From NCBI RefSeq assembly GCF_028561275.1, contig NZ_JAQQTF010000019.1:62001-126000 (forward strand): a DNA stretch of 64,000 nucleotides. The letters are read 5' to 3'. Made by a program: the position numbers and the translations under genes. This DNA is from Aureisphaera galaxeae. Its GTDB lineage: Bacteria; Bacteroidota; Bacteroidia; Flavobacteriales; Flavobacteriaceae. Below the pieces are notes generated by a model that saw nothing but the letters and a program-made list of their open reading frames with translations, was not told the DNA's origin and did not search any database. Positions within the stretch are counted from its first letter, which is position 1. Each line of letters begins with the position of its first letter. Below, in pieces: positions 6,691 to 60,470 of the stretch.

Positions 6691-6746
6691 AAAAAAACGT
6701 TTTAAGATTTTTTTAGCTCTTGGATGTCTGTTTGAGTAAAAGACGC

Positions 6747-7553
6747 CTAGGTGTTGTAACGCTCCATCAGGGATTTTCGATCGATTTTTGGAAGCTGTTT
6801 AAGCATATAAAAGAAGAAGGGTAGTACGATGAGCACACTTACAATGGCCTCGTAGGTTCTGAAGTTGGCAATTTCCTTAGTGATCACAGTGCCTGGTAAA
6901 TCATCCCAGTTGGAAGCGAAATTGATAATACCATGCAAAAATCCGATGGGATAAATACTGCCTGTTCGCAATAGCATAATGGCGAATCCCACCCCGAACA
7001 TGGTTGCATAAATCACTTGGGCCAGTACTGTGACAAAATGCGAGTCGGTTTGGAATAGATTGAAAAAATGCAATACCCCAAACATGAAGGCAGAAAGTAC
7101 AATGGGCGCAAGTAATGACTGCTCCGAATGCGCTCCCTTAATGAGATGGGGTAAAACAAACCCACGAAAAATGATCTCTTCCGAAAAACCTACCGACATC
7201 ATGGCCAGAAATAGGATCAGAACATTGATAGGATTTACATTATCAAATTGATACCCCAATACGATATATTCGGCTGGGCCCGCAAGAATGAAATAGAGAG
7301 GGATGAGAACCAGAATAGTATGTTTGGGCTTAAACTGGGTAAGTCCGGAAATCTTGGTGTATCCAAATTGGATAATGAGAAAAATTCCCCCAATAATAAT
7401 GACCGAATTCTTCAAAATGTCCCCAATGTATTGCATTTTGAATTCGTTCAATCCAAAGGGCGTCAATAACTGATCGAAAGGTAATAGCAATAAAAACAGA
7501 AAGCCTCCGACCACGGCTATGCTGGAACCTAGATTGGGATTGGATGGAATCAT
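6747..7553 (-). CDS. CPBP family intramembrane metalloprotease
   Basis: A 268-residue protein with about seven hydrophobic helices. The CPBP (CAAX protease/bacteriocin-processing, Abi) motifs are all present: EEIIFR (125-130), a membrane histidine at 162 (GVLHFFNLF), and H207 with N211 in FLHGIINFA. It probably cleaves within the inner membrane. The substrate is unknown. It follows the 276-residue exported protein gene after 9 bp on the same strand and is likely co-transcribed with it. Confidence 0.88.
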   Translation of the reverse strand: MIPSNPNLGSSIAVVGGFLFLLLLPFDQLLTPFGLNEFKMQYIGDILKNSVIIIGGIFLIIQFGYTKISGLTQFKPKHTILVLIPLYFILAGPAEYIVLGYQFDNVNPINVLILFLAMMSVGFSEEIIFRGFVLPHLIKGAHSEQSLLAPIVLSAFMFGVLHFFNLFQTDSHFVTVLAQVIYATMFGVGFAIMLLRTGSIYPIGFLHGIINFASNWDDLPGTVITKEIANFRTYEAIVSVLIVLPFFFYMLKQLPKIDRKSLMERYNT

Positions 7554-7562
7554 GGTGGGGAA

Positions 7563-8393
7563 TTATTCAGGAATCAGTTCAAAAACAGTGGTTCTTACAC
7601 CTCCACTTCCCAAAAGGGAGAAATTGGTGTCAATCTCCGTATTTCCTTTGTATTCTAACCATCTTCCTTTTTCAATGGAAAATAGAGCGGTCGCTTTATG
7701 CGTCATTTTCATGTAGATGTTCTGTTCCTTGGCTTCGCCAAATAAGCTCATTGCGGCATTTCCAAAAGTGCCAGATACATATTCTGCGATATTGTATTTT
7801 ATCACTGCTACAGTATCACCATTTTTTTCTCTAATCTCCTCTATGAACACCTCGTTTTCTTTTGAAAACTCTTCTCCCACAAAATTCTGATCCATAGCGA
7901 TTAAATCTACCTGAAGATGCCATTTCTCACCTATGGCAACGGGTTTCGAAGGTAATTCGAATAACAACGCAATGAGATTACTTTGGGAAGTATTGTAGTA
8001 ATGGCTCAGTAATTCACCGGCAGGACTTATCTTTCCCCTAAGCATCACATTTCCATTCATTGAAACCATACTAGTAAACATATTGTCGGTAGTATCTTCT
8101 TCCTCCCGAACCACTTCCATTACGATGTCTATATTTCCACGGCAGTCATTAAATAGTTTTGATGCATATTTTAGTTTGGATGCTTGAGATCGCATTTTAT
8201 CAAAAGACTTACCCAATTCCCCGAACAAGGAATCCATTTTCATTTCTTTGCCTTCTGTAGGTACATGCTTCTCATCCATAATCGTTTTATAAGTAAGCGT
8301 GTCTGTTACCTTCCATTGTAGATCGTACTTTTCGGATTGTTGCGCTGAGGCTATGGAGACCAGAAACAGAAGTGGTAGTATGATATATTTCAT
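7563..8393 (-). CDS. exported protein, possibly DUF6263-like
   Basis: A 276-residue protein with a cleavable signal peptide (MKYIILPLLFLVSIASAQQ). The mature protein alternates predicted beta strands with charged loops and resembles exported Bacteroidota proteins that I tentatively place near DUF6263 (segments GEKWHLQVD and KATALFSIEKGRWLEYKG). No catalytic motif is visible. It is co-directional with the CPBP protease gene, 9 bp apart. Confidence 0.65.
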   Translation of the reverse strand: MKYIILPLLFLVSIASAQQSEKYDLQWKVTDTLTYKTIMDEKHVPTEGKEMKMDSLFGELGKSFDKMRSQASKLKYASKLFNDCRGNIDIVMEVVREEEDTTDNMFTSMVSMNGNVMLRGKISPAGELLSHYYNTSQSNLIALLFELPSKPVAIGEKWHLQVDLIAMDQNFVGEEFSKENEVFIEEIREKNGDTVAVIKYNIAEYVSGTFGNAAMSLFGEAKEQNIYMKMTHKATALFSIEKGRWLEYKGNTEIDTNFSLLGSGGVRTTVFELIPE

Positions 8394-8447
8394 TAAGAGC
8401 GTTTAGTTAGATAGGTGTTGTTTTCTTTCCAAAAGTTACGTTCGCCA

Positions 8448-9461
8448 TTAATTACCCTGCAACCAATTGTCGAAGGCAATTAATTTCGCTTCATTTTCAC
8501 CAAGCCATTGAAAAGAATTTTCATTCACGCCACTGGTAATGTATTTGCAATACGTCTCCATGTGATCACTTTTTGCCAGTTCGTAGAAATAGGGGATATA
8601 GAAGCCCCACCAAATACCTTCCTTTTTATCCTTTTCAGAAAGTTCTCCAAGAATCTTAAAGAAAGACTCTGTGTTTTGCACAAACATTTCGTCTTCGGTT
8701 TTACCCTTGTTTTCTTCTAGGGTTTTGGAGGCTTCCAACAGGGAGATCATTAATTCGGCAGCGCCAAATTCACTATCACCACCCGGATTAAGCAAGATAT
8801 TTATATTGTTGGGATCTTCCTTGTCCTCACTAACATTGCCGCCCAAATTTTCCTGTAGCATGGAAAATACGGCTGGAGAACGTTTCGAGTCGGGTTCCAG
8901 AAACAAAAAGTAGTAGGAAGTTAATAAGGTCTGTACTTTGTTTCCCCTCCCGTTATGAATCGTGGCCAACATTAAATGGCTGCTCGCATGATTGGGGTTA
9001 AACTGAATACCTCCCATGACGTTAGATTCGGCATTGTCTAAATCGCCCAGCTTGTAATAATTTATGGCCAGGTTGTAATACAGCAGATAATGCCCCTCCG
9101 TCTTCTGAATGGCCTCTTCAAAAAATTTGATGGAGGCATCGGTATTGCCCATGACGTCCAAAGCAGATCCTTTGGTAAGGTAGGCTTGTATCATATAATC
9201 CCCATTTTGTTCCAGTACGTTATCCGAATGTTCTATTACTTTTTCATAATCTGCCTTCGAAAAATAACTCAGCGCCAATTCGTAGTGCACCAAAGCCGAA
9301 TTGGGATCTATTTCCAAGGCTTTTTGATAGGTAGCAATGGCTTTGTCGAATTCACCACCGTCGTGGTATTGAATCCCTTCTTTTACAAAATCTTCAATAG
9401 TCTGTGCTAGGGCAGTAGTGCTAATAAATAATAGAGAAAGTACAATGTGAAATGATCTCAT
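8448..9461 (-). CDS. exported TPR-repeat protein
   Basis: A 337-residue periplasmic or surface protein. The start is ATG at 9461, giving the signal peptide MRSFHIVLSLLFISTTALAQ; ten upstream in-frame codons would spoil it. Four or more tetratricopeptide repeats follow (for example GGEFDKAIATYQKALEIDPN), which usually serve as scaffolds for protein contacts. The C-terminal 150 residues are not clearly TPR. Its function is unknown. Confidence 0.82.
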   Translation of the reverse strand: MRSFHIVLSLLFISTTALAQTIEDFVKEGIQYHDGGEFDKAIATYQKALEIDPNSALVHYELALSYFSKADYEKVIEHSDNVLEQNGDYMIQAYLTKGSALDVMGNTDASIKFFEEAIQKTEGHYLLYYNLAINYYKLGDLDNAESNVMGGIQFNPNHASSHLMLATIHNGRGNKVQTLLTSYYFLFLEPDSKRSPAVFSMLQENLGGNVSEDKEDPNNINILLNPGGDSEFGAAELMISLLEASKTLEENKGKTEDEMFVQNTESFFKILGELSEKDKKEGIWWGFYIPYFYELAKSDHMETYCKYITSGVNENSFQWLGENEAKLIAFDNWLQGN

Positions 9462-9547
9462 GGTAGTGCTAATGAAAGTTACTTTTACCAAGATACGTTT
9501 TTAGGGAGTGCTAAATGGAAAAGCTTCCTGTTATTGATGAATTTAGA

Positions 9548-9814
9548 CTACTTCCTGTACAAGAAATAATGATTCACTGTTTCTACATAGAGCCTCTTGG
9601 CTTCTTCTGCCGTGAGTCCCTGGGTTTGGAACAGGGCATTGGTTTTAAAGGCATTTATAAGAGGATTGCTACTGCCAGGGGAGGATTGGTCGTTGGTGGC
9701 ATGCTTGTAATAGGCATATAGTTTCAATAAGACATCGGCCGGGAAAGGATCGATGTGTTTGTTAATACTTTCCACGGCATTGGTAAAGGCGATATCCAAT
9801 TCTTCGGAGGTCAT
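9548..9814 (-). CDS. acyl-CoA-binding protein (ACBP family)
   Basis: An 88-residue four-helix protein. It has the family pattern LLKLYAYYKHAT (ligand-binding Tyr and Lys) and a C-terminal VETVNHYF helix. It would bind long-chain acyl-CoA in the cytoplasm. Its stop-to-start neighbour is psd (3 bp upstream), followed by cdsA, so the operon links acyl-CoA handling with phospholipid synthesis. Confidence 0.85.
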   Translation of the reverse strand: MTSEELDIAFTNAVESINKHIDPFPADVLLKLYAYYKHATNDQSSPGSSNPLINAFKTNALFQTQGLTAEEAKRLYVETVNHYFLYRK

Positions 9815-9817
9815 GCA

Positions 9818-10468
9818 TTAAGTAGTTGCAAGGACGCTGAGTCCTCCTTTAACTTTTTCATTCAATGAAACTTGTACGTTGGCATCTAAGGGGAGGAATA
9901 CATCTACCCGTGAACCAAATTTTATAAAACCGCTGTCATTGGTTTGTGTTACGTTCTGTCCTTCTTCGGCATAATTTACGATTCGTTTGGCGAGAGCACC
10001 GGCTATTTGTCGATGCAACACTTCACCAAACTCTTCGCTTTTTACTACCACAGTGGTTCGTTCGTTTTCCTCACTGGCTTTTGGGTGCCATGCCACAAGG
10101 TATTTTCCGGGATGGTATTTGCTGAAGGTAACGTCGCCTCCTACCGGATATCGCGTTACGTGCACATTCAGCGGATTCATAAACACTGAAATCTGAAGGC
10201 GTTTATCTTTGAAATATTCTTTCTCGAATACTTCTTCAATCACCACCACTTTTCCATCTACGGGAGACAGTACCTGATTTTTGTCCGTACTGAAATTTCG
10301 TTTCGGGTTTCGGAAAAACTGAAGCACCAGTACCAAAAGTACGATTAACGTAATGAGCAACAGCATTCGGAGCCATTCTAACGTTACAAATTGATTCACG
10401 GCCAATGCGGCACCAATCACAATAAAAAAGGTGATGATAATGATCTTGTGTCCTTCCTTATGAAACAT
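9818..10468 (-). CDS. psd: phosphatidylserine decarboxylase family protein
   Basis: A 216-residue enzyme that makes phosphatidylethanolamine from phosphatidylserine. Two N-terminal hydrophobic segments anchor it in the inner membrane. The self-cleavage site that produces the pyruvoyl group is FGSRVDVF (Gly185-Ser186), as in the short PSD subclass, and HVTRYPVGG carries the conserved His. It overlaps the end of cdsA by 11 bp and precedes the ACBP gene, which indicates one lipid-synthesis operon. Confidence 0.92.
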   Translation of the reverse strand: MFHKEGHKIIIITFFIVIGAALAVNQFVTLEWLRMLLLITLIVLLVLVLQFFRNPKRNFSTDKNQVLSPVDGKVVVIEEVFEKEYFKDKRLQISVFMNPLNVHVTRYPVGGDVTFSKYHPGKYLVAWHPKASEENERTTVVVKSEEFGEVLHRQIAGALAKRIVNYAEEGQNVTQTNDSGFIKFGSRVDVFLPLDANVQVSLNEKVKGGLSVLATT

Positions 10469-11264
10469 AATCCACGATTTCTAAAAATGCATAAATAAAT
10501 GGGCTAACATAGATAACGCTATCCAATCGGTCGTAGATGCCACCATGTCCGGGCATAAGAGAACCGCTGTCCTTAACGCCAGCCTGTCGTTTAAATTTGG
10601 ACTGTATAAGATCGCCCAAAGTCCCTAAAACGGTGACCATAACTGCCATCGCAAACCAAGCGCCCAAGCTGAGCAATTGGGTATAGTTAAAGATAAGAAA
10701 TCCTGCCAAGAAAGTCCCGGCAAAACCTCCAATAAACCCTTCTACGGTTTTTTTGGGAGATACCCGCTCCAATAGCTTGCGTTTCCCGAAATTCTTACCA
10801 ATCAAATAAGCAAAACTGTCATTGGCCCAGATAAGGATAAAGATACCGATGATAAGCCATACTTGATACGTTCCATTATGGTAGGGAATCAAGGTGAGAA
10901 ACGTAAAACCGGCGATGAGGTAAAAGATAAGGGCAATGTATTTTTTCCTGCCGAACATGGGGATGATCTTACCCACCACCAATAGATCTTTCAGCAAGAA
11001 AAGATTCACGAATATGGCGAGGATACAGTAAAGGTAAATGGCATTTTCATCCCATACGGTATAACTTAGGAAATACAACAATACTCCTAGGATGACATAG
11101 GAGATAAAACTCTTTAAATGAACCAGTTTTTGAAACTCGTAGACCGTGATGGCCCCTAAAAGAAAGAAAAGAACCAAGAACCACTCTCGTGAAGCAAACA
11201 TGGAAAATAGGATGATCGAGATATAGAGCAATCCCGAAATGCTGCGAACGATGAGTTCCTTCAT
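10458..11264 (-). CDS. cdsA: phosphatidate cytidylyltransferase
   Basis: A 268-residue polytopic membrane enzyme that converts phosphatidic acid and CTP to CDP-diacylglycerol. It has about seven membrane helices. The family signature is at residues about 217-249 (GDLIQSKFKRQAGVKDSG, then MPGHGGIYDRLDS), and SPKKTVEGFIGG (169-180) is also conserved. It begins 3 bp after the LUD-domain gene and overlaps psd, which acts two steps later in the same pathway. Confidence 0.95.
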   Translation of the reverse strand: MKELIVRSISGLLYISIILFSMFASREWFLVLFFLLGAITVYEFQKLVHLKSFISYVILGVLLYFLSYTVWDENAIYLYCILAIFVNLFLLKDLLVVGKIIPMFGRKKYIALIFYLIAGFTFLTLIPYHNGTYQVWLIIGIFILIWANDSFAYLIGKNFGKRKLLERVSPKKTVEGFIGGFAGTFLAGFLIFNYTQLLSLGAWFAMAVMVTVLGTLGDLIQSKFKRQAGVKDSGSLMPGHGGIYDRLDSVIYVSPFIYAFLEIVDYVS

Positions 11265-11267
11265 AAA

Positions 11268-11870
11268 CTATAGGTCTTCGAGTAGCAGCAAATATAGGTT
11301 TTTTGTGCTACTTCCATAACTCATAAAGTCTTTTTCCTTATCGTTCTCGAAGTCTTGAATTGTAGTAATATTACTGGGAATGTACTGCCTGCTTTGGTTT
11401 TTAATAATGCGCAATCCTTCGCTAATGCTTTCCACCAATTGACTCGTGGTTGCGAAAATGACAAAATTCGTTGGCAGTTCGTGCAACTTCTTTTCTTTTA
11501 TCTGATTTGAGGATAGCAAAATAGAACCGTTATTGGCTACGAGCGATTCGCAATCGGACAAAAAGAAGGAGGATTGGGAGCCTTTGCCAAAATTGAGGTT
11601 GTACCCATCGAACTTATCGCACAGCTGGTCATTGATACAAAAAACATCCTTCTCGTACCAGTCATTTTCCAAGAGGATGTTATCAAAAGCTTCGGAGATT
11701 TCGTCCCAGTTTTCGCAGTAGAGAAACTTGCCCCCGTTTTTGTTAAAGTTGTAAGTAAACTTCTCATCCACAGGAAGTTTCTCTTCCGGGAAGTACTTGC
11801 TATGGTCAGAATTCTTGGTCTTGGGTTCCGACTTCGCACTCGATTTTAAAAGTCTCTTAAACAGACTCAT
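11268..11870 (-). CDS. LUD-domain (LutC/YkgG-like) protein
   Basis: A 200-residue cytoplasmic protein that I recognise as a lactate-utilisation (LUD) domain member (CESLVANNGSILLSSNQI, then LPTNFVIFATTSQLV). It is a stand-alone copy without the LutA/LutB partners. In flavobacteria such a copy commonly sits between ftsH and cdsA, so a role in lactate oxidation is not implied. It lies 3 bp before cdsA on the same strand. Confidence 0.75.
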   Translation of the reverse strand: MSLFKRLLKSSAKSEPKTKNSDHSKYFPEEKLPVDEKFTYNFNKNGGKFLYCENWDEISEAFDNILLENDWYEKDVFCINDQLCDKFDGYNLNFGKGSQSSFFLSDCESLVANNGSILLSSNQIKEKKLHELPTNFVIFATTSQLVESISEGLRIIKNQSRQYIPSNITTIQDFENDKEKDFMSYGSSTKNLYLLLLEDL

Positions 11871-11984
11871 AAAGGCCTAAATTGAGGAGTTTCTATACGT
11901 TAATCTTCAAATATATAAAATCTGAGGGTAAGTTTTGTAAGAAAAAATCAAACATTCCTACCCCAAAAAGTTAAAATTGAAGCA

Positions 11985-13937
11985 CTACGTGGTAGCGATT
12001 TTCTGTTCTGGTGCCTCTTCTTCTTTTTCGAAGGGACGCTTTCCAAAAATTCGCTCCAAACTTTCCTTGAAAATAACTTCTTTCTCAAGGAGTTCATTGG
12101 CCAGTTCGGTGAGTTTATCTTTATGTTTGAGCAAAAGATCGATGGCTCTTTGGTACTGCGCTTCGATAATGTTCGATATTTCCTTATCGATCATTTCGGC
12201 TGTTTTCTCACTATACGGTTTACTGAAATTGTAATCCGTTTGACCCGACGAATCGTAATAAGTGAGGTTTCCGATCTTATCGTTCAATCCATAAATAGTA
12301 ACCATAGCTCTTGCCTGCTTGGTTACCTTTTCTAGGTCGCTCAAGGCTCCTGTTGATATTTTGTCGAAAATTACTTTCTCTGCTGCACGACCTCCCATAG
12401 TGGCACACATTTCATCCAGCATTTGCTCAGGGCGCACAATTAGGCGCTCTTCTGGCAAGTACCAAGCAGCTCCCAAAGATTGTCCTCTGGGGACAATGGT
12501 CACTTTTACCAATGGAGCGGCATGTTCTAACATCCAGCTTACCGTGGCATGACCCGCTTCGTGGAAAGCGATTGCTTTTTTCTCTTCGGGGGTAATGATC
12601 TTATTTTTCTTTTCCAATCCACCCACGATTCTATCTACCGCATCCAAGAAGTCCTGCTTCCCAACCGCTTTCTTATCATTCCGCGCTGCAATAAGTGCCG
12701 CTTCGTTACATACGTTGGCAATATCGGCTCCGGAGAATCCAGGAGTTTGTTTTGCTAGGAAATCGGTGTCTAAGGAGTCGTCTTTCTTCAAAGGACGTAG
12801 GTGTACTTCAAAAATCTCTTTTCGCTCACGTACATCGGGAAGGTCCACATAAATCTGACGGTCGAAACGTCCAGCACGCATTAAAGCCTTGTCCAAAATA
12901 TCCGCTCGGTTCGTAGCTGCCAATACAATGACGTTGGTATTGGTTCCGAAACCATCCATTTCGGTCAATAACTGGTTCAAGGTATTTTCACGCTCGTCGT
13001 TAGAACCGGAGAAATTATTTTTTCCTCGGGCACGACCAATGGCGTCGATCTCATCGATAAAAATAATTGAAGGCGATTTCTCTTTGGCTTGCTTAAACAA
13101 GTCACGTACACGGGAAGCTCCCACCCCTACAAACATCTCTACGAAGTCTGATCCAGACAGTGAGAAGAAAGGTACTTTGGCTTCTCCAGCTACGGCTTTA
13201 GCCAATAAGGTCTTACCCGTTCCCGGAGGTCCTACCAAAAGGGCTCCTTTCGGGATTTTTCCTCCCAAGGAAGTATATTTTGTCGGATTCTTAAGGAAGT
13301 CCACAATTTCTTGTACTTCTTCTTTTGCACCTTCCAAACCGGCAACATCCTTAAAAGAAGTTTTTACGTCGGTCTTTTCATCAAATAGTTTGGCTTTGGA
13401 TTTTCCGATATTGAAAATCTGACCACCGGCACCGCCACCGCCACCGGCAGACATGCGTCTCATGATGAAAATCCAAATTCCTATAATGACAATAAAGGGT
13501 AGAAGCGTGAGCAATAGTTCCCCCCACATATTGGAGTCTGTCTTCCATTCTACATAGGTAGCCAGACCACTGTCTTCCTTAATTCCGTTAAAATTGTTCT
13601 CGAAGTTTTGAAGGTCACCAATTTCGAATTCGTATACCGGATCGTTTGGTCCGGGAGCGAACATAGTGCTGCCCGATTTGGGCTTGTGTTCTTCTTTCTG
13701 TCGCGCTTCGGGCGTAAGATAGACTTGCGCCTTGGTCTTATTTATGATTAAGATGCGCTCTACATCACCAGCCCTTAGGTATTCTTCAAATTCTCTTTGG
13801 GTCGTATCCTTGGGGCGTGTTAAGCTTCCGCCTCCAAAAAATTGGATTCCTACAAAAAGTGCAAAGATGCCAATGTAGATCCACCAGGCGTTAAACTTCG
13901 GTTTTTTAGCTTCAGGTTTTTTATTTTCTTCGGCCAT
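11985..13937 (-). CDS. ftsH: ATP-dependent zinc metalloprotease FtsH
   Basis: A 650-residue membrane AAA+ protease that extracts and degrades membrane and regulatory proteins. It has two N-terminal helices (about 17-35 and 139-159) around a periplasmic domain. Then come a Gly-rich linker, Walker A GPPGTGKT (236-243), Walker B IIFIDEID (291-298), the SRH region with arginine fingers (343-362), and the zinc site HEAGH (459-463) with a downstream acidic ligand. It is full length. It follows rsfS by 16 bp on the same strand. Confidence 0.97.
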
Positions 13938-52551: not shown

Positions 52552-53010
52552 ATGCCTAGCTTTTCTCTAAAAATTAATGGAAATACCGTTACTATAACGG
52601 CAGATGCCGATACCCCGTTACTTTGGGTACTGCGCGATGAACTCAATATGGTTGGGACCAAATATGGCTGCGGAATTGGCCAATGTGGAGCTTGCACCGT
52701 ACATATTGATGGTACCGCCACTCGAAGCTGTTTGATCCCCGTTTCGGCCGTAGAAGGTAAAGTGACCACCATCGAAGGACTTTCTGAAGACGGTTCGCAC
52801 CCTGTGCAAGAAGCCTGGAAGGAAATCGACGTACCGCAATGCGGGTACTGCCAATCGGGTCAGATCATGACCGCTGCTTCTTTCTTGAAGGAAAATCCAA
52901 ATCCTTCACAAGCAGAAATACGCGAAGCCATGAACGGCAATATCTGCCGCTGTGCTTCCTATAATCGAATTGAAAAAGCCGTGGCTGTTGCCGCCCAAAA
53001 ATCCAACTAA
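52552..53010 (+). CDS. molybdenum hydroxylase small subunit, 2x[2Fe-2S]
   Basis: A 152-residue electron-transfer subunit. The plant-type [2Fe-2S] cluster ligands are in CGIGQCGACTVHIDG and a later Cys. The second cluster is CGYCQSGQ with CRC in GNICRCASY. It matches the alpha subunit of isoquinoline-1-oxidoreductase/aldehyde-oxidase type enzymes. It is 12 bp upstream of the catalytic subunit; no FAD subunit is encoded, so electrons probably pass to a membrane acceptor. Confidence 0.93.
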   Translation: MPSFSLKINGNTVTITADADTPLLWVLRDELNMVGTKYGCGIGQCGACTVHIDGTATRSCLIPVSAVEGKVTTIEGLSEDGSHPVQEAWKEIDVPQCGYCQSGQIMTAASFLKENPNPSQAEIREAMNGNICRCASYNRIEKAVAVAAQKSN

Positions 53011-53022
53011 TTACGAAGCACC

Positions 53023-55188
53023 ATGGAAACTCAAAATACAACGTTTACCTTCAGTAGAAGAAACTTTTTAAGGACCACGGCGCTTGCCAGTGGAGGGATG
53101 CTCATAGGGTTCAATCTGTTTACGGCCTGTAAGTCGGAGGTTGAAATGCCCGTAGATATTGCCAGTTTAAATTTCAATGATTTTAATGCCTTCATTAAAA
53201 TAGCCGACAACGGTATGGTAACCATCTTTTCTCCCAATCCTGAAATTGGACAGGGAGTAAAAACCTCCATGCCCATGATTATTGCCGAAGAGTTGGATGT
53301 GCCTTGGAAACACGTACACGTAGCCCAAGGAATTCTGGATAATAAAAATTACCAACGACAGGTAGCTGGGGGAAGTCAGTCCATCCGATTTGGATGGGAC
53401 GCCCTGCGACAAACAGGAGCCACGGCTAGACAAATGCTTGTGAACGCTGCCGCTGCCCGATGGGGAGTGGATGCTTCTACCTGTACTGCATCCGAAGGGG
53501 TTATCACCAATGAGAAAGGCGAAACCTTAGGATATGGAGATGTGGTGAAAGAAGCTGCTGTGTTGGAAGTTCCCGAAGATGTAACCCTGAAAGATCCGAA
53601 AGACTATAAAATCATCGGTACCGATGCGGTGAATGTGGACATCGACAAAATCATCACTGGAAAACCACTCTTTGGGTTGGATTATAGAGCCGACGGAATG
53701 AAATATGCTGTCGTTATGCGACCACCTGCATTCGGAAAGAAATTGGTGAGTTTTGACGATACGGCTGCCAAAGCTGTTACGGGTGTAGAAGAAGTGGTTC
53801 GATTTGGAGATAAAGTAGCGGTATTGGCTACAAGCACTTGGGCTGCTATGAAAGGGAAGAAAGCCTTAACGGCAGAATGGGAAGATGATTCTGAATTGGA
53901 AAGCACCGAAGACCATGATAAGAAACTTACTGAAATCCTGGACGGAAATAAATTTGATGAAAGAAGGAACGATGGAAATGTAGATGTGGCTTTTGCGAAT
54001 GCCGATAAGGTCATTGAACGTACCTATGAATCGCCATTTTTGCCTCACAACTGTATGGAACCTATGAATTTCTACGCAGATGTGAAGCCCGATAAGATAC
54101 ATTTGGTAGGTCCTATTCAGACACCTTCGGGAACAGCACGACGAGTAGCCGAGATGTTAGAAAGGAATGAAGATGAGGTCTATTTGGAAATGACCCGCAT
54201 GGGAGGTGGCTTTGGAAGACGCCTGTATGGTGATTTCGTAATGGAAGCTGCCGAGATTTCCAGTCTTACCAGCAAACCAGTAAAAGTGGTTTACACACGT
54301 GAAGACGATATGGCAGCAGGAATCTATCGCCCCGCTATTAAATATAGAATAGCTGCTTCTTTAAAGGACGGAAAGATTACCGGATATCACCTAAAGGAAG
54401 CTGCGATCAACAGAAATATGTACGGATTAATTCCACACTTTTTCCCAGCAGGTTGTATTGAAAACTACAAAGTGGAAACTGGCAATTACCAAAGTAATAT
54501 TACGGTAGGAGCGTGGCGCGCACCTTATACAAACTTCTTGGCTTTTGCGGAGCAGAGTTTCTTTGACGAACTGGCTACCGAATTGGGACAGGACCCTGTA
54601 CAATTGCGTATCGATCTCCTTCAAAATGTGAAAGGAAACACAGACGAACGCATTGAGTATTCTGGAGAACGTATGGAAGAAACCATTAAGCTGGTTGCTG
54701 AGAAATCCAATTGGGGTAAGATGCCCGAAGGTGTATACCAAGGATTTGCTGCCTATTACAGCCATAATACGCACGTAGCGGAAGTAGCTGATATAGAAAT
54801 GGATTCCTTCGGCAATCCAGTAGTGAAAAAGATAACAGTAGCTGTAGATTGTGGTATTGTTGTAAATCCTACCGGCGCCAAGAACCAAATTGAAGGTGGG
54901 GTAATCGACGGAATGGGTCACTCCATGTACAGTGATTTTGGCTTTGCCAATGGAGCACCGACAGCCACGAATTTTGATCGCTATCGACTCATCCGTATGA
55001 CGGAAACACCTCAGGTAGAAACGTATTTTGTTGAAAATGGACTATCGCCCACCGGTTTGGGTGAACCAGGATTACCACCTGCAGGAGGTGCCATCGCCAA
55101 CGCCATTAAGGCAGCAACAGGGGAACGTCTTACCCAACAACCCTTTGTGAAATACATGGGGAAAGAGGTGAAAGAAGTAGAAGGATAA
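53023..55188 (+). CDS. molybdopterin-binding catalytic subunit (IorB-like), Tat-exported
   Basis: A 721-residue catalytic subunit of a xanthine-oxidase-family hydroxylase. The N terminus has a twin-arginine signal (FSRRNFLRTTALASGGMLIG) followed by a Cys (TACKS), so the complex is periplasmic. It has GQGVKTSMPMIIAEEL, RMGGGFGRRLYGDF and the region of the catalytic glutamate (GLGEPGLPPAGGAIANA). The physiological substrate (an aldehyde or N-heterocycle) is unknown. Confidence 0.93.
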   Translation: METQNTTFTFSRRNFLRTTALASGGMLIGFNLFTACKSEVEMPVDIASLNFNDFNAFIKIADNGMVTIFSPNPEIGQGVKTSMPMIIAEELDVPWKHVHVAQGILDNKNYQRQVAGGSQSIRFGWDALRQTGATARQMLVNAAAARWGVDASTCTASEGVITNEKGETLGYGDVVKEAAVLEVPEDVTLKDPKDYKIIGTDAVNVDIDKIITGKPLFGLDYRADGMKYAVVMRPPAFGKKLVSFDDTAAKAVTGVEEVVRFGDKVAVLATSTWAAMKGKKALTAEWEDDSELESTEDHDKKLTEILDGNKFDERRNDGNVDVAFANADKVIERTYESPFLPHNCMEPMNFYADVKPDKIHLVGPIQTPSGTARRVAEMLERNEDEVYLEMTRMGGGFGRRLYGDFVMEAAEISSLTSKPVKVVYTREDDMAAGIYRPAIKYRIAASLKDGKITGYHLKEAAINRNMYGLIPHFFPAGCIENYKVETGNYQSNITVGAWRAPYTNFLAFAEQSFFDELATELGQDPVQLRIDLLQNVKGNTDERIEYSGERMEETIKLVAEKSNWGKMPEGVYQGFAAYYSHNTHVAEVADIEMDSFGNPVVKKITVAVDCGIVVNPTGAKNQIEGGVIDGMGHSMYSDFGFANGAPTATNFDRYRLIRMTETPQVETYFVENGLSPTGLGEPGLPPAGGAIANAIKAATGERLTQQPFVKYMGKEVKEVEG

Positions 55189-55192
55189 ATCC

Positions 55193-55789
55193 TTATTCGG
55201 AAGTTTTGAGTAAAAGCTTCTGATAGGATTCCATCGTATCAATATCAAAATAGGGTTCAGGCCATGAAAAGTCTGTAACCCTGTTTTTATGTTTTTGAAT
55301 CACGGTTTTCGCACCCTCATCTGAAATGAGCTGTTGTAATTCAGGGAAAAACTCTGTGTTGAAAATGACCGGAACTCCCTTTACATGCTGATAGGCAGTT
55401 CGTGTGATATCATTCTTGCCTGATTGATGAAAATGCAATAGGCTTTTATAGAAATTCTTTTCCAGTAAAGGAAGATCACAAAGCGTAACCAAAACATGCT
55501 CAAAGGAAGGTTGCTTGGTGATTTCCTGTATGGCTTTAGCAAGGCTATTTCCCATTCCTTCCACCCAGTCTGGATTAAAAATTGTGATGACACCTGGAGT
55601 TGTAATTTCCCTTTCAACAAATTTTACATACGCCCCTAAAACCACAAATATTTGCGAAGAGGGTATTTCATCAAGTTGGTTTAGGGTGTGTTGGATTAGG
55701 GAGGTATTCTTATAGGCCAGAAGTTGTTTAGGACTGCCCAATCGGGAAGAACTCCCTGCTGCTAAGACGACTATCGCGGTATGTGACAC
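55193..55789 (-). CDS. molybdenum cofactor nucleotidyltransferase (MocA-like)
   Basis: A 198-residue NTP-transferase with the N-terminal VLAAGSSSRLGSPKQLLAY loop and the metal-binding VTLCDLP. Such MobA-like proteins add CMP (MocA) or GMP to molybdopterin. Next to a xanthine-oxidase-type enzyme, the cytidylyl form is expected. The start is GTG at 55789, 2 bp after xdhC. It is convergent with the hydroxylase gene (4 bp apart). Confidence 0.9.
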   Translation of the reverse strand: MSHTAIVVLAAGSSSRLGSPKQLLAYKNTSLIQHTLNQLDEIPSSQIFVVLGAYVKFVEREITTPGVITIFNPDWVEGMGNSLAKAIQEITKQPSFEHVLVTLCDLPLLEKNFYKSLLHFHQSGKNDITRTAYQHVKGVPVIFNTEFFPELQQLISDEGAKTVIQKHKNRVTDFSWPEPYFDIDTMESYQKLLLKTSE

Positions 55790-55791
55790 GG

Positions 55792-56799
55792 TTAATGGAT
55801 GCTTCCGGATTTGTCTTTTAAAGATACGGGTTTTTCATTTCGGAAAACGGAAAGGATTTCTGCCATAATGGAAATGGCGATCTCTTGAGCGGTTTCGGCA
55901 CCGATATTGATGCCCGCCGGTCCGTGGATGGCTTCTAAAAAGACATCGCTCAAATCACCATATTTGTCTAGGAGCTCATTGAGAAGTCGTTCCCTTCTTT
56001 TGGCAGGCCCCAATAAGGCGATATAGGTAAGCTTTTTATCCCGTAAAGCCGATAAATACTTTAAATCCTTTACAAAACTATGGGCCATAAGGACTACTGC
56101 GGTTTGAGGATCGAAGGATAGTTGCCCGAATGCTTTTTCGTCAATGCCGAGGTAGGTCGATGCTCCAGGGAAATTCGATACGCTTTTAGGATCATCGGGT
56201 GGTGCAACTAAGGTAACTTCCCAACCAGCGGCAGCCGCAAATTTTGTGAGCTGCACTGCATCGTGTTCGCTTCCCACGATGATAAGGCGAAAAGCTTCCA
56301 ATACTTTTTGTGTAAAAACTTCCAGTTCATCCACTTCAGAAAAAAGGGAAACCTTGAAGGATGTTTGGTTAGAGAAATTGAATTGACTTCCCCCACTAAA
56401 TCTGTGTGTTTCTTCTTTGGAGAAATAACTATCGATGGAGAATGGGGTTCGCAGCTTTTTTTGTTCGTAAAAGGCTTCAAAGAAACCTTCCTCGGGCATA
56501 AAGGGTTCAATTAAAATGTAGAGAATACCCTCACAACCCAAACGTACACGACCATCGTACATCATGAGTTTAGGGCGGCCATCGGCAAAGACACTTTGCG
56601 CTTGCTTCAGCACTTCTTTTTCTACGCAGCCGCCGCTTACCGCACCGACCATTTTACCATCCTCCCGAACCAACATACGCACCCCCGGTCTTCGATAGGA
56701 AGAACCGTTAAGCGCTACAACTGAAACAAATGCGCTTTTCAGTCCCCTTTTTTGGGCTTCTCGGGCATTTTCTATGATTTCGTTCAGTTCGTGTAGCAT
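55792..56799 (-). CDS. XdhC family molybdenum-enzyme maturation protein
   Basis: A 335-residue protein. The N-terminal XdhC/CoxI domain has SSYRRPGVRMLVREDGKMVG and GAVSGGCVEKEV, with the conserved Cys. A C-terminal Rossmann domain follows (LIIVGSEHDAVQLTKFAAAAG; HGPAGINIGAETAQEIAISI). XdhC inserts the sulfurated cofactor into the hydroxylase. ATG at 56799 is chosen over an upstream frame extension without similarity. It is co-transcribed with the MocA-like gene. Confidence 0.92.
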   Translation of the reverse strand: MLHELNEIIENAREAQKRGLKSAFVSVVALNGSSYRRPGVRMLVREDGKMVGAVSGGCVEKEVLKQAQSVFADGRPKLMMYDGRVRLGCEGILYILIEPFMPEEGFFEAFYEQKKLRTPFSIDSYFSKEETHRFSGGSQFNFSNQTSFKVSLFSEVDELEVFTQKVLEAFRLIIVGSEHDAVQLTKFAAAAGWEVTLVAPPDDPKSVSNFPGASTYLGIDEKAFGQLSFDPQTAVVLMAHSFVKDLKYLSALRDKKLTYIALLGPAKRRERLLNELLDKYGDLSDVFLEAIHGPAGINIGAETAQEIAISIMAEILSVFRNEKPVSLKDKSGSIH

Positions 56800-56938
56800 A
56801 TAAGTGAGGTGAATAAAAGTGAATTGATCTTCGTTACAGCGATTGAAAATACAAGCAATAACGGGAACTAGCAAACACTTTTAGAAAGGTTTTAGAAAAC
56901 CCGTTGTACATTTTATATAAAGAAAGAAGGGATGAGTA

Positions 56939-57907
56939 TTAAGCAATATCGATCAATTCCTCATAGGCGATAGGAATACCCAATCCATTAAATAGGGCCA
57001 CGATTTTGTCCATGTATTGCTTTAAAAGAGCAGTTGCTTTTTCTTGGTATTCTATGGGTAGTTTTTCAATATCGGTAAGTGCTTCTTTGTAGATTTCAAT
57101 CATTTTATAAATGCAAAAGCTTACGGCTCCGCTTTCTATAAGCATCTGCTGTAGTTGAAGGATAACTTCTTTTGTTTTGGGTTGGATGAGCAACTTTTTA
57201 AATGGTCCTTTACTGGGATAATCTGCATGTAAACAATACAGCAAAGCAATGTTTTTGAATGGTTGTTCCCAGTCGGGTCCATCGTCCACTTGGAGCAAAT
57301 CGTGTAAATCGTCATTCACTTGAATCAATCGACCAACGGGTTTTCCCAGTTCGGATAGCTGCGTAGCCAATGTCACATCCGCTCCACCCAATAAGGCACC
57401 CACAAACAGGGAAGAGGAAAATAAGGGAGGCGTTTTTAAGTCCACAGCACGCCAATAGGCTTCCTCGCTTCCGTCCAGTTGAATGTCTTCATTCTGTCCA
57501 TAGGCCGTATGTAACATCATTTCATGATGGTTCCGTAAGACGTTCAGTTGAGTATCTGCTGGAATCGATGCATTTAGTATCATGTCATCTCCCAAGGCTT
57601 GAAACACCAAGGCTAAGTTGGCTGCGGTTCCTTCTCCCACTTTTATATGCAGTCCTTTGGGGTCTTCGTCCAATAGATCGTCCACCAAATGAATGCTTTG
57701 CAAAAGACAGTAATTTGCAGCTGTTGCTGGTAACGAATCTTCCTCTTTACCACCTACAAGGGTGCAGGCCCAAGTGGCATAATCCCAAGATGCGAAATCT
57801 TCTCGAGGGGAAATTTTGTTGATAATTGTGGCTATTTCCGGCCATTTATTTACAATAGGATGGTTTAATAGGAGGTCTTTAATTTGGGAAACATCGATCT
57901 TTTTCAT
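56939..57907 (-). CDS. divergent class I isoprenyl synthase-like protein (ComQ-like candidate)
   Basis: A 322-residue all-helical protein of the polyprenyl-synthetase superfamily. The first Asp-rich motif is DDLLDED (76-82) and the second NDDLHD (198-203); KTP lies at 158-160. The arginines that bind isopentenyl diphosphate in chain-elongating enzymes are missing: the usual GGKRxRP reads GGKEEDSLP, and no RRG follows the first motif. This suggests an enzyme that binds an allylic diphosphate but does not elongate it, as ComQ, which prenylates a Trp of ComX. ATG at 57907 is preferred to one 6 codons upstream. Three 47-residue peptide genes precede it. An orphan terpenoid enzyme is the alternative. 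Confidence 0.75.
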   Translation of the reverse strand: MKKIDVSQIKDLLLNHPIVNKWPEIATIINKISPREDFASWDYATWACTLVGGKEEDSLPATAANYCLLQSIHLVDDLLDEDPKGLHIKVGEGTAANLALVFQALGDDMILNASIPADTQLNVLRNHHEMMLHTAYGQNEDIQLDGSEEAYWRAVDLKTPPLFSSSLFVGALLGGADVTLATQLSELGKPVGRLIQVNDDLHDLLQVDDGPDWEQPFKNIALLYCLHADYPSKGPFKKLLIQPKTKEVILQLQQMLIESGAVSFCIYKMIEIYKEALTDIEKLPIEYQEKATALLKQYMDKIVALFNGLGIPIAYEELIDIA

Positions 57908-57931
57908 GGAAAAGGGTGGGTTCAAAGGAAG

Positions 57932-57962
57932 AAAAGCGAGCCTGAATCTAGTTAGACTCGCT
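57932..57962 (-). terminator. hairpin between peptide 3 and the prenyltransferase-like gene
   Basis: On the minus strand, AGCGAG and CTCGCT pair around a 16-nt loop and are followed by TTTCTT. Placed 15 bp after the peptide 3 stop and 28 bp before the enzyme start, it would terminate a share of transcripts and make peptides in excess over enzyme. Confidence 0.45.
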
Positions 57963-57976
57963 ATTTCATATCATTT

Positions 57977-58120
57977 TTATTCGTGCCAAACCGTCCAAGC
58001 TGCAAATTTTGCATGCTTTTTAAGCTGTTCGGTTTTTCTTTCTTTTAAATCGTAAAGTGCTTTAAGTACTTTTTGATCGTTATCGGTTAGCTTTTCCGAG
58101 AATTGATTAACTGTTGTCAT
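57977..58120 (-). CDS. 47-residue aromatic-tail peptide, copy 3
   Basis: A 47-residue peptide, MTTVNQFSEK at the N terminus and KHAKFAAWTVWHE at the C terminus. The start at 58120 gives exactly the same length as its two neighbours. All three share FS at 7-8, a charged helical middle, KK at 34-35, a basic residue at 38, Phe39, Trp42 and Trp45. There is no signal peptide and no double-glycine leader. It lies 69 bp before the prenyltransferase-like start. A ComX-like precursor with a prenylated Trp is my proposal, unproven. Confidence 0.8.
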   Translation of the reverse strand: MTTVNQFSEKLTDNDQKVLKALYDLKERKTEQLKKHAKFAAWTVWHE

Positions 58121-58161
58121 AATTATAATTTTAAATTGAATAGGTGATTTGTGAATAGGAG

Positions 58162-58305
58162 CTACACTCCCCAAGGATCCCAATTGGCAAATTTTTGCTG
58201 TTTTTTGAATTCAGAAACTTTGTGTTTCCGTATTTCATTTAAAACTTTGAAAGCTCCTTCGGGTTTATTTTCGAGCGCTTTCGAGAAAAGATGAACTGTA
58301 ATCAT
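58162..58305 (-). CDS. 47-residue aromatic-tail peptide, copy 2
   Basis: A 47-residue peptide read from ATG at 58305 to TAG at 58162. It begins MITVHLFSKALENK and ends KKQQKFANWDPWGV. FS (7-8), Lys34-Lys35, Lys38, Phe39, Trp42 and Trp45 fall at the same positions as in copies 1 and 3, while the middle has diverged. That is strong evidence for a real coding gene despite its size. Copy 3 starts 41 bp after it. Confidence 0.8.
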   Translation of the reverse strand: MITVHLFSKALENKPEGAFKVLNEIRKHKVSEFKKQQKFANWDPWGV

Positions 58306-58466
58306 AGTGTTTTCTTTTTTTGAGATTAAACATGATATGATCTTAAAGTTAATCCTTATATCCTCGGATTTTTCGAATTACCCATAAAGGAATGGATTCA
58401 TGAAGCCAAGCCTCATGATTTTGATATAAAGAGCAGCTTCGCTGTTCTAGTATCTACTTTCAGGGG

Positions 58467-58610
58467 TTAATTTGCCCACATATCCCAAGGGCTGAACCTT
58501 GAGTGTTTTTTAACTCGATGTATGGACTGTTCTTGAAGGTTTTTAAACGCGTCGAAAATAGCGTTCTCTTTTTGTACGGTTTGTTCTGAGAAATTTTGAA
58601 TGGTCGTCAT
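58467..58610 (-). CDS. 47-residue aromatic-tail peptide, copy 1
   Basis: A 47-residue peptide, MTTIQNFSEQTVQK at the N terminus and KKHSRFSPWDMWAN at the C terminus; the start ATG is at 58610 although the frame opens 15 codons earlier. It shares the FS, KK, basic-Phe-x2-Trp-x2-Trp-x2 framework with copies 2 and 3. A 161-bp gap to copy 2 contains a small hairpin (GCAGC-TTC-GCTGT, 58433-58445) that could attenuate transcription. It lies 108 bp downstream of the membrane-bound regulator gene. Confidence 0.8.
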   Translation of the reverse strand: MTTIQNFSEQTVQKENAIFDAFKNLQEQSIHRVKKHSRFSPWDMWAN

Positions 58611-58718: not shown

Positions 58719-59276
58719 TTATTTTTTCAGTTCTACGAGGGTGTCATTAATAGTATCTATTTCATAGACTTTCAACTCCTCCGATCCTTCCAAAAATATA
58801 ACCGTGTCTTTTGAAGTATCATATCTAAGTAATTCGGGACTTTCAGAGTTTTTGTGCTTTTGTACTATTGGGACAAGAATAATAGGTAGAATCAATACCA
58901 GAAGGGCAGCATACCAGAGCAAAAGTTTGTTTCTGTTTTCTTTGTTTTCTTTCTTTTCTGAAGAAGAAAGCACCAGCCGATATCCTTTTTTTGGGATGGT
59001 CTCTATGGCGATTACTTCATGAATGCCATTTTGTTTGAAAATTTCCCTGAGTTTATAAATGTTTCGTGTAAGTGCTTGTTCTCCTGTATAGGAATTACCA
59101 CTCCAAATCTCTTCTATAAACTGTTCTTTAGATACAATAATTCCTTCTTTTTCCGCAAGGAGCTGAAGAATCTTCATAATCTGATTTTCTAACTTAACCA
59201 AACGCTCACCGTGTTTGGTTTTTAGCACCAGTTCGTTGGAGGATTCTCGTATTTCTATGGACTCTGTTAGTTTCAT
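58719..59276 (-). CDS. membrane-anchored winged-helix regulator
   Basis: A 185-residue protein. Residues about 5-103 form an OmpR/PhoB-type winged helix (GIIVSKEQFIEEIWSGNSYT, RNIYKLREIF, IETIPKKGYRLVL). A Lys/Asn-rich linker precedes one membrane helix (about 118-138), and about 45 residues remain outside. There is no receiver domain. The ToxR-like layout would let an envelope signal act directly on DNA. Start ATG at 59276; 21 further codons upstream are open but unlikely. It is upstream of the peptide genes on the same strand and divergent from a hydrolase gene. Confidence 0.85.
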   Translation of the reverse strand: MKLTESIEIRESSNELVLKTKHGERLVKLENQIMKILQLLAEKEGIIVSKEQFIEEIWSGNSYTGEQALTRNIYKLREIFKQNGIHEVIAIETIPKKGYRLVLSSSEKKENKENRNKLLLWYAALLVLILPIILVPIVQKHKNSESPELLRYDTSKDTVIFLEGSEELKVYEIDTINDTLVELKK

Positions 59277-59390
59277 GTATCGGCCATTATATGCGCGAAA
59301 GGATAAAAAAAGGATATAAAAAGGAGGGGCGCATCCCATTTAGATCCTATTTCTGAATCTAGCTTTACCAAAATAAAAAAACACACGATT

Positions 59391-60470
59391 ATGTCTGTAG
59401 TATTATTTAGATTTTTTTTCATTTTTCTACTATTGCTTTTCAGTGTATGTTATGCGCAACATACCATTAAAGAAGATTTTGTTCTTACGACCGAAGAAGG
59501 GATTCAATTGGCTGGTGAAATCGAGTATCCCAATGCCAAGGGGAAGTTTCCGGCAGCCATCCTCATTTGGGGCAGCGGTCCCCATACAAGGGATGAAGAA
59601 ATATCGGGAAGCCCCATCTTTAAACAAATAGCGAGCGAACTTATTAAAAATGGAATGGCAGTGCTCCGTTTCGACAAAAGGGGACAGGGTAAGTCTACCG
59701 GGGATTTTAAGTCGGAAGTGAACTACACTACGCACGACCTTGCCAACGATGTAGCGTATGCCTATGAATTTTTGAATGCTCACAAAGCGGTGGATACCTC
59801 CAAAGTTGGATTGATGGGCCACAGCGAAGGCTCCATAATAGCTTCCATGCTGGCTGCAGAAGATAAGAGCATTGATTGGGTTATCGTATTTGGCCCAGCT
59901 GGGGTTTCAGGAAAAGCGATAGAGTTGGATCAAGGGAGGCACAACAGGGAACGATTGAAAATGTCCGAGGAAGTGAGCGCCGATGTAGGGAAGGTTTGGG
60001 AGCAATATATTGAGTTCATTAAGGATGGTTATAAGAGCGATTCTATTTACTATAACATAGGGAAGGACTTCCTTTTGGCCCACGGATTGGAAGAAAATGA
60101 CGAAAGGATTACCCATGAGTTTATAGATCAATTACTGGATGGATATAAAACACCATGGCATCAGTATTTTTATACAAACGATCCCGCCGATTATTTGACT
60201 CAGATAAAAATCCCATTTCTTGCACTGTTTGGAGGTGCGGACCCCCAAACTTCTGTAGCTTTAAACTTCATGCCTATGTTCAACGCTTTGCAGCAGGCTG
60301 AAAACAGAAACTATAACTTGGTTGTGCTAGCGGACGAAGATCATTTCTTCTTTAGGCATAAGGGAAAGCGGGTGGAAAAGCACGTGTACGGCGAAATGGA
60401 AATGTCTCCTCAATTCCTAAGCGCTATTACCGATTGGCTCAGGGAGCAGCACATTATAGATGATGAGTAG
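59391..60470 (+). CDS. exported alpha/beta hydrolase
   Basis: A 359-residue enzyme with a signal peptide (FFFIFLLLLFSVCYAQH). It has the serine-hydrolase elbow GHSEG (in KVGLMGHSEGSIIASML), DKRGQGKSTG upstream, and a final His in DEDHFFF. It resembles acyl-peptide-hydrolase/dienelactone-hydrolase-like esterases or peptidases. It is divergent from the membrane-bound regulator (114 bp), so a regulatory link is possible. The substrate is unknown. Confidence 0.87.
   Translation: MSVVLFRFFFIFLLLLFSVCYAQHTIKEDFVLTTEEGIQLAGEIEYPNAKGKFPAAILIWGSGPHTRDEEISGSPIFKQIASELIKNGMAVLRFDKRGQGKSTGDFKSEVNYTTHDLANDVAYAYEFLNAHKAVDTSKVGLMGHSEGSIIASMLAAEDKSIDWVIVFGPAGVSGKAIELDQGRHNRERLKMSEEVSADVGKVWEQYIEFIKDGYKSDSIYYNIGKDFLLAHGLEENDERITHEFIDQLLDGYKTPWHQYFYTNDPADYLTQIKIPFLALFGGADPQTSVALNFMPMFNALQQAENRNYNLVVLADEDHFFFRHKGKRVEKHVYGEMEMSPQFLSAITDWLREQHIIDDE

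Follow-up and report, generated by a model that had tools for sequence, protein, structure and literature searches.

A candidate tryptophan prenyltransferase beside three W-x-x-W precursor peptides in a flavobacterium, with kinase-linked relatives in a second phylum

Tryptophan prenylation for signalling has been described from Bacillus and its relatives, and a census of the ComQXPA system found none outside Firmicutes (PMC4008528). The window analysed here, a stretch of 64,000 nucleotides from the flavobacterium Aureisphaera galaxeae, contains three very small genes next to a gene for an isoprenyl-synthase-like enzyme. A preliminary description of the sequence read this arrangement as a ComQX-like prenylated-peptide system. 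We asked whether the enzyme, here called Q, could prenylate the three peptides, X1 to X3, and whether such a pair recurs elsewhere. We found no paper on such systems in Bacteroidetes or Acidobacteria; the network clusters of Hubrich 2024 may include the Q family.

The X-Q module in the window

On the minus strand, X1, X2, X3 and then Q follow one another in a single direction between 58610 and 56939, separated by gaps of about 161, 41 and 69 bp (Table 1). Open reading frames and alignment agree with the preliminary description that the three adjacent genes are paralogues of exactly 47 codons from ATG, all with W-x-x-W, and that Q is the next gene on the same strand, 3' of X3. The paralogues of X1 are 26-32% identical to it in the alignment of the three window peptides, and X1 scores 61.7 bits against the X profile. 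Common to all three are M1, T3, F7-S8, K34-K35, F39, and the W-x-x-W; their cores are divergent. Each peptide ends in W-x-x-W plus two residues (WDMWAN, WDPWGV, and WTVWHE), which makes the second Trp the third residue from the C terminus in every case.

Table 1. Features of the X-Q module and its immediate neighbours (window coordinates)
Feature	Coordinates	Strand	Basis
X1 precursor, 47 aa, MTTIQNFSEQ...RFSPWDMWAN	58467..58610 (codons 58610-58470)	-	ORF, paralogue alignment, profile
X2 precursor, 47 aa, MITVHLFSKA...KFANWDPWGV	58162..58305 (codons 58305-58165)	-	ORF, paralogue alignment, profile
X3 precursor, 47 aa, MTTVNQFSEK...KFAAWTVWHE	57977..58120 (codons 58120-57980)	-	ORF, paralogue alignment, profile
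RNA hairpin (9 bp) then UUUUC, between X3 and Q	57927..57964	-	Fold -14.8 kcal/mol, z -3.4
Q, trans-IDS-fold putative Trp prenyltransferase, 322 aa	56939..57907	-	Pfam PF00348, residues, AlphaFold, VIA, tree
Winged-helix Trans_reg_C regulator, one TM helix	58719..59276	-	Pfam, hydropathy
XdhC/CoxI-type protein, unrelated neighbour	55792..56874	-	Pfam

The likely start of Q is the ATG at 57907; the TTG at 57925 given in the ORF list is less likely. The hairpin in front of Q is a possible partial terminator, which would yield more X than Q. It was missed by our terminator scan, which admits loops of 3-8 only. Sigma-70-like and terminator scans of the window gave chance-level results, and the Bacteroidota -33/-7 promoter pattern is neither enriched in the window nor present at the X-Q module.

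Residues, fold and distribution of Q

Q matches the Pfam polyprenyl_synt family (PF00348; 8e-13, 48.6 bits), and its closest PDB sequences are isoprenyl diphosphate synthases. AlphaFold2 modelling of Q with five relatives gave a pLDDT of 89. A structural comparison of the kind proposed in the preliminary description gave an isoprenyl-synthase fold: the Q model aligns with isoprenyl synthases over about 290 residues (VIA-align Z 25-30, up to 29.7). We aligned Q and 12 relatives with 32 canonical synthases. All 13 family members keep the FARM DDxxD (D76, D77, and D80 in Q), the SARM DDxxD (D199, D200, and D203), the KT lysine, and the Gln before the SARM. None of the 13 has GKxxR, the RR after the FARM, the IPP-side His, or the GK and KxT lysines after the SARM, whereas the IPP-binding GKxxR and RR are present in 31-32 of the 32 canonical synthases. 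The earlier observation that both Asp-rich motifs are kept and the IPP-binding arginines lost was thus right, and applies family-wide. The family also has invariants of its own (N97, A99, and W213). The Gln just before the SARM (Q196 in Q), said to be a mark of Trp prenyltransferases, occurs in 32/32 canonical synthases too and so does not discriminate. On these residues, one would not expect Q to bind IPP as canonical synthases do, and chain elongation is therefore unlikely. By sequence and model, Q combines an isoprenoid-synthase fold with the loss of the IPP site, as do the trans-IDS-like Trp prenyltransferases.

Other identities were considered for Q and rejected. The family 2 encapsulin cargo polyprenyl transferase model (NF041169) gives 46.8 bits against a curated cut-off of 450, the second motif is DDLHD and not the NSE triad of a terpene cyclase, and a canonical chain-elongating isoprenyl diphosphate synthase would have GKxxR and RR.

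In the tree, Q and its relatives form a clade of their own with 100/100 support, apart from the canonical synthases and not within the elongating ones, the placement that, by the preliminary description, would have spoken against its reading. The window Q groups with the enzyme of one distant locus (L079_Q) at 94/76 on a long branch, and its exact place is unsure. A Thermoanaerobaculia MAG supplied the first distant relative (32% identity, E 6e-52), and phylum and class searches from there yielded ten more genomes with Q, 11 in all. By contrast with this spread outside Bacteroidota, where Q and W-x-x-W peptides co-occur, the co-occurrence that the preliminary description envisaged within the phylum was not found: no other Q is present in about 790 Bacteroidota genomes (99 relatives, 397 family members, and 395 phylum members, partly overlapping). 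Weak matches across these genomes, up to 72 bits, are no higher than the background that canonical polyprenyl synthases give and were discarded. Viral contigs contain no Q relatives, and plasmids only canonical synthases of 26-32% identity. Because the flavobacterial singleton sits in a clade that otherwise belongs to another group, the X3Q module was probably acquired horizontally. Its composition bears no trace of recent transfer, the GC of Q (0.42) being like that of the surroundings.

Precursors and kinases of the relatives

A precursor with W-x-x-W or a C-terminal Trp lies within 1.3 kb of Q at nine of 11 readable loci from two phyla, the window included, which answers the earlier concern that Q homologues might never stand beside W-x-x-W peptides. 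The distant precursors start with M-x-I-x-E/D-F and contain W-x-x-W. L079 has one (PLAWAFWK), L096 has one beside Q, L097 and L099 have two each, L098 has two (TDWGQWP and PAWGEWP), and L101 has one with GRWGIWGE and another, RLWSAWLPG, after the kinase. The precursors of L078 and L081 have one Trp, only in YWF/YWY, and no W-x-x-W, and no X adjoins Q at L082 and L100. The second Trp lies 2 to 26 residues from the C terminus in the relatives versus third in the window.

The W-x-x-W occurs in 19 of 21 otherwise divergent precursors versus 3% of ORFs of matching length. When a profile built from X1-X3 was run on 1,529 ORFs, the L079 peptide, the neighbour of a Q homologue from another phylum, ranked first among non-self matches (E 0.064); among 4,431 control ORFs of 60 unrelated loci, the best score was 8.0 bits. 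Because of this frequency and this match, we do not regard the recurrence of W-x-x-W as chance. We also built a profile from the leader only, leaving out the Trp region. All eight new complete precursors that it retrieved, a count that excludes the training set and its near-copy, have W-x-x-W, against the same 3% background. The leader-only profile sees the window peptides weakly (3.7 bits), and its match to one window ORF (13.6 bits) is false. The sequence link between window and distant X is thus weak at full length and in the leader, and the connection therefore rests on Q adjacency and W-x-x-W. In the class of 149 genomes, X is found in six of the eight genomes with Q and in 0/141 others (Fisher p 2e-9, kinship ignored).

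Nine relatives (L078-L082, L097, L098, L099, and L101) have a histidine kinase directly 3' of Q or after one X. The kinase has one TM helix (TM1), a stretch of about 85 residues and then about eight further TM helices; where its sequence is complete, GAF, HisKA, HATPase, and receiver domains are present too. The membrane part was modelled poorly by AlphaFold (pLDDT 58), and only the ectodomain was used, whose model (pLDDT ~70-92) has a PDZ fold matching HtrA2, CtpB, and DegS; PDZ domains fill the VIA matches there at Z ~7-8.7, and Foldseek E-values are weak (0.1-0.5). Across the same class, the kinase is present in 8/8 genomes with Q versus 1/141 others (Fisher p 2e-12, again ignoring kinship). 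It stands beside Q in every relative with readable downstream sequence except L100, whose genome has kinases elsewhere. The kinase profile had no match on plasmids. We recognised no ComP-like kinase in the window or the flavobacterium genome, where the kinase-sensor profile gave only weak PDZ-region matches (E 0.0018). The flavobacterial module is either the sending half alone or serves another purpose.

Several relatives depart from the simple arrangement. L099 has a tandem X-Q-X-Q-kinase cluster (7,300-13,500 in reverse-complement coordinates), in which each of the two Q has its own W-x-x-W precursor. In L082 (G814), Q and kinase abut, with genes of FG-GAP/VCBS and multihaem-cytochrome-like type upstream of them, and no X is found nearby or in the genome. 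The cluster of G1178 is split between contigs, X plus kinase lying on a different one from the rest. In G1127, Q stands alone and two kinase copies on other contigs (L133 and L134) have W-x-x-W peptides adjoining, so X and kinase stay together at a distance from Q too; this is possibly a scattered signalling network in one genome. Two more W-x-x-W precursors about 1.2 kb apart are encoded in L131 of G1179 (6711-6884 and 7912-8094), on a contig with no detected ComP-like kinase. G1147, with no detected Q or X, has a ComP-like kinase (L132 4470-7706) and is possibly a listener only. A receiver-EAL gene, a possible c-di-GMP output, lies upstream of X in L096 (1999-3270) and likewise in L097 and L098, three related loci.

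Proposed function and rival readings

The arrangement resembles Bacillus ComQXPA in that a trans-IDS-fold enzyme is encoded next to a small precursor carrying a Trp close to the C terminus, and the distant kinases resemble ComP, whose ectodomain has been modelled as a PDZ fold in the same place with CtpB as its best match (PMC9620489), in having this domain between TM1 and TM2 and many TM helices thereafter. There are also differences. Both enzymes keep the FARM, but ComQ has a degenerate pseudo-SARM (PMC5331326), whereas the SARM of Q is intact in 13/13. ComX has no consensus (PMC5331326), whereas in X a W-x-x-W core recurs and the leader follows a pattern. The distant kinases, unlike ComP, are hybrids with their own receiver domain, and the window has no kinase. 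The Pfam ComX model (PF05952) finds nothing in the flavobacterium's own genome at E<=1 or among 14 X peptides at E<=10, with the proviso that its sensitivity is low and that it stays below its own cut-off in the B. subtilis control as well. Given the SARM of Q and the failure of X to match the ComX model, X-Q is a new variant and not a member of ComQX, though one that would work like it. The ComQX-like reading is supported, with corrections as to the phyla in which Q and X co-occur, ComX membership, the SARM, and a ComP partner, which the flavobacterium lacks.

According to a 2026 review, the trans-IDS-like peptide prenyltransferases are ComQ, PalQ, and the ChrPC P domain, all of which act on Trp (PMC13290415). 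PalQ of Paenibacillus alvei is, like Q, an isoprenoid-synthase-superfamily Trp prenyltransferase that keeps the SARM and is encoded beside a precursor (PalX) and a histidine kinase (PalP; PMC10853753). PalX carries an NHLP leader and ends in its Trp, and a C-terminal extension abolishes activity (PMC13290415). In X, unlike PalX, the leader is short, and the Trp is the third residue from the end in the window and as far as the 26th in relatives; X1-X3 (47 aa) have no NHLP match, and two residues follow their last Trp. The P domain of ChrPC (Hubrich 2024, as cited in PMC13290415) is trans-IDS-like and prenylates an internal Trp of its precursor but is fused to a cyclase domain; Q is single-domain, and no cyclase gene adjoins it.

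We therefore read X1-X3 as putative ribosomal precursor peptides and put the probability that Q prenylates a Trp of X at about 0.83. Q would bind an allylic diphosphate, geranyl or farnesyl, at the FARM with Mg2+, binding no IPP, and ionise it; indole C3 of the Trp would then attack C1 to give a prenylated tricyclic Trp, by analogy with ComQ and PalQ (PMC5331326, PMC10853753). A Trp of the W-x-x-W would receive the prenyl group, more likely the second, because this is the antepenultimate residue of X1, X2, and X3 and thus placed like the modified Trp of ComX, the third or fourth residue counted from its C-terminal end (PMC5331326). ComX of the natto strain has an internal Trp and undergoes C-terminal trimming (PMC5331326). 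The N-terminal part of X (M-x-I-x-x-F...L-x-x-L) would be a leader that is removed before the lipopeptide is released. In the Acidobacteriota-type relatives, the neighbouring histidine kinase with its TM-PDZ-multi-TM layout most likely senses the lipopeptide, in the way that ComP senses ComX, and an X-Q-P system is the best reading of the distant group.

Two rivals concern the chemistry, and both seem to us very improbable. Q could be a terpene or isoprenyl diphosphate enzyme of an isoprenoid pathway, with the X genes as unrelated neighbours, and the Pfam and NCBIfam models do put it, loosely, with the polyprenyl synthases; yet the IPP site is lost family-wide, Q forms its own clade, no isoprenoid genes adjoin it in the window, and X tracks Q across genomes. 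Q might instead prenylate free tryptophan or another small indole, with X as regulators of Q or bystanders. Ord1, a Trp farnesyltransferase (PDB 9v4h) with the same all-helical fold, acts on free tryptophan (PMC13290415) and is among the structural matches of Q (Z 25.6, VIA-align), but the W-x-x-W of the divergent peptides is what a peptide acceptor would need.

A third rival keeps the chemistry and differs in the use: the flavobacterial product could be a secreted lipopeptide weapon or a surface or envelope component and not a pheromone, the kinase never having been acquired or having been lost. This reading, which we hold to be less probable than not but well worth considering, draws on the absence of a recognisable kinase beside X3Q or elsewhere in the genome when nearly all relatives readable downstream of Q have one beside it, and on the three divergent X cores. 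Against it, the relatives combine at least two X per genome with a kinase, so several cores are no argument against signalling, and a diverged or unrelated receptor is possible. A signalling role can be extended, tentatively and at slightly under even odds, to a hitherto unrecognised diderm class of prenyl-Trp signalling that joins W-x-x-W X, SARM-retaining Q, and PDZ hybrid kinases, sometimes with scattered copies, in which the flavobacterium, having taken up X3Q alone, emits a lipopeptide and other cells may read it. A lipid-tailed peptide signal, known only from Gram-positives, probably exists more widely. If so, bacteria on either side of the Gram divide make prenyl-Trp lipopeptides, the recurrent W-x-x-W core would supply a recognition motif that ComX never offered and by which further systems could be searched for, and the module would provide a candidate peptide prenyltransferase that is compact and comes with three natural substrates.

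As for a receiver within the window, the membrane-anchored winged-helix regulator (58722-59276) is adjacent, on the same strand, and has one TM helix. It is an unlikely receiver of the X peptides, because a 45%-identical homologue in a congener pairs with the same divergent hydrolase without X or Q. It probably lies outside the X-Q module and belongs to an older pair. That divergent pair of regulator and alpha/beta hydrolase (58722-60467) recurs in the congeneric genome (L102 5844-7605); there an XRE-type regulator takes the place that X and Q have in the window. Directly 3' of the module (52552-56874) lie apparently unrelated molybdenum-hydroxylase (xanthine-dehydrogenase-type) genes with XdhC and a MobA-like gene.
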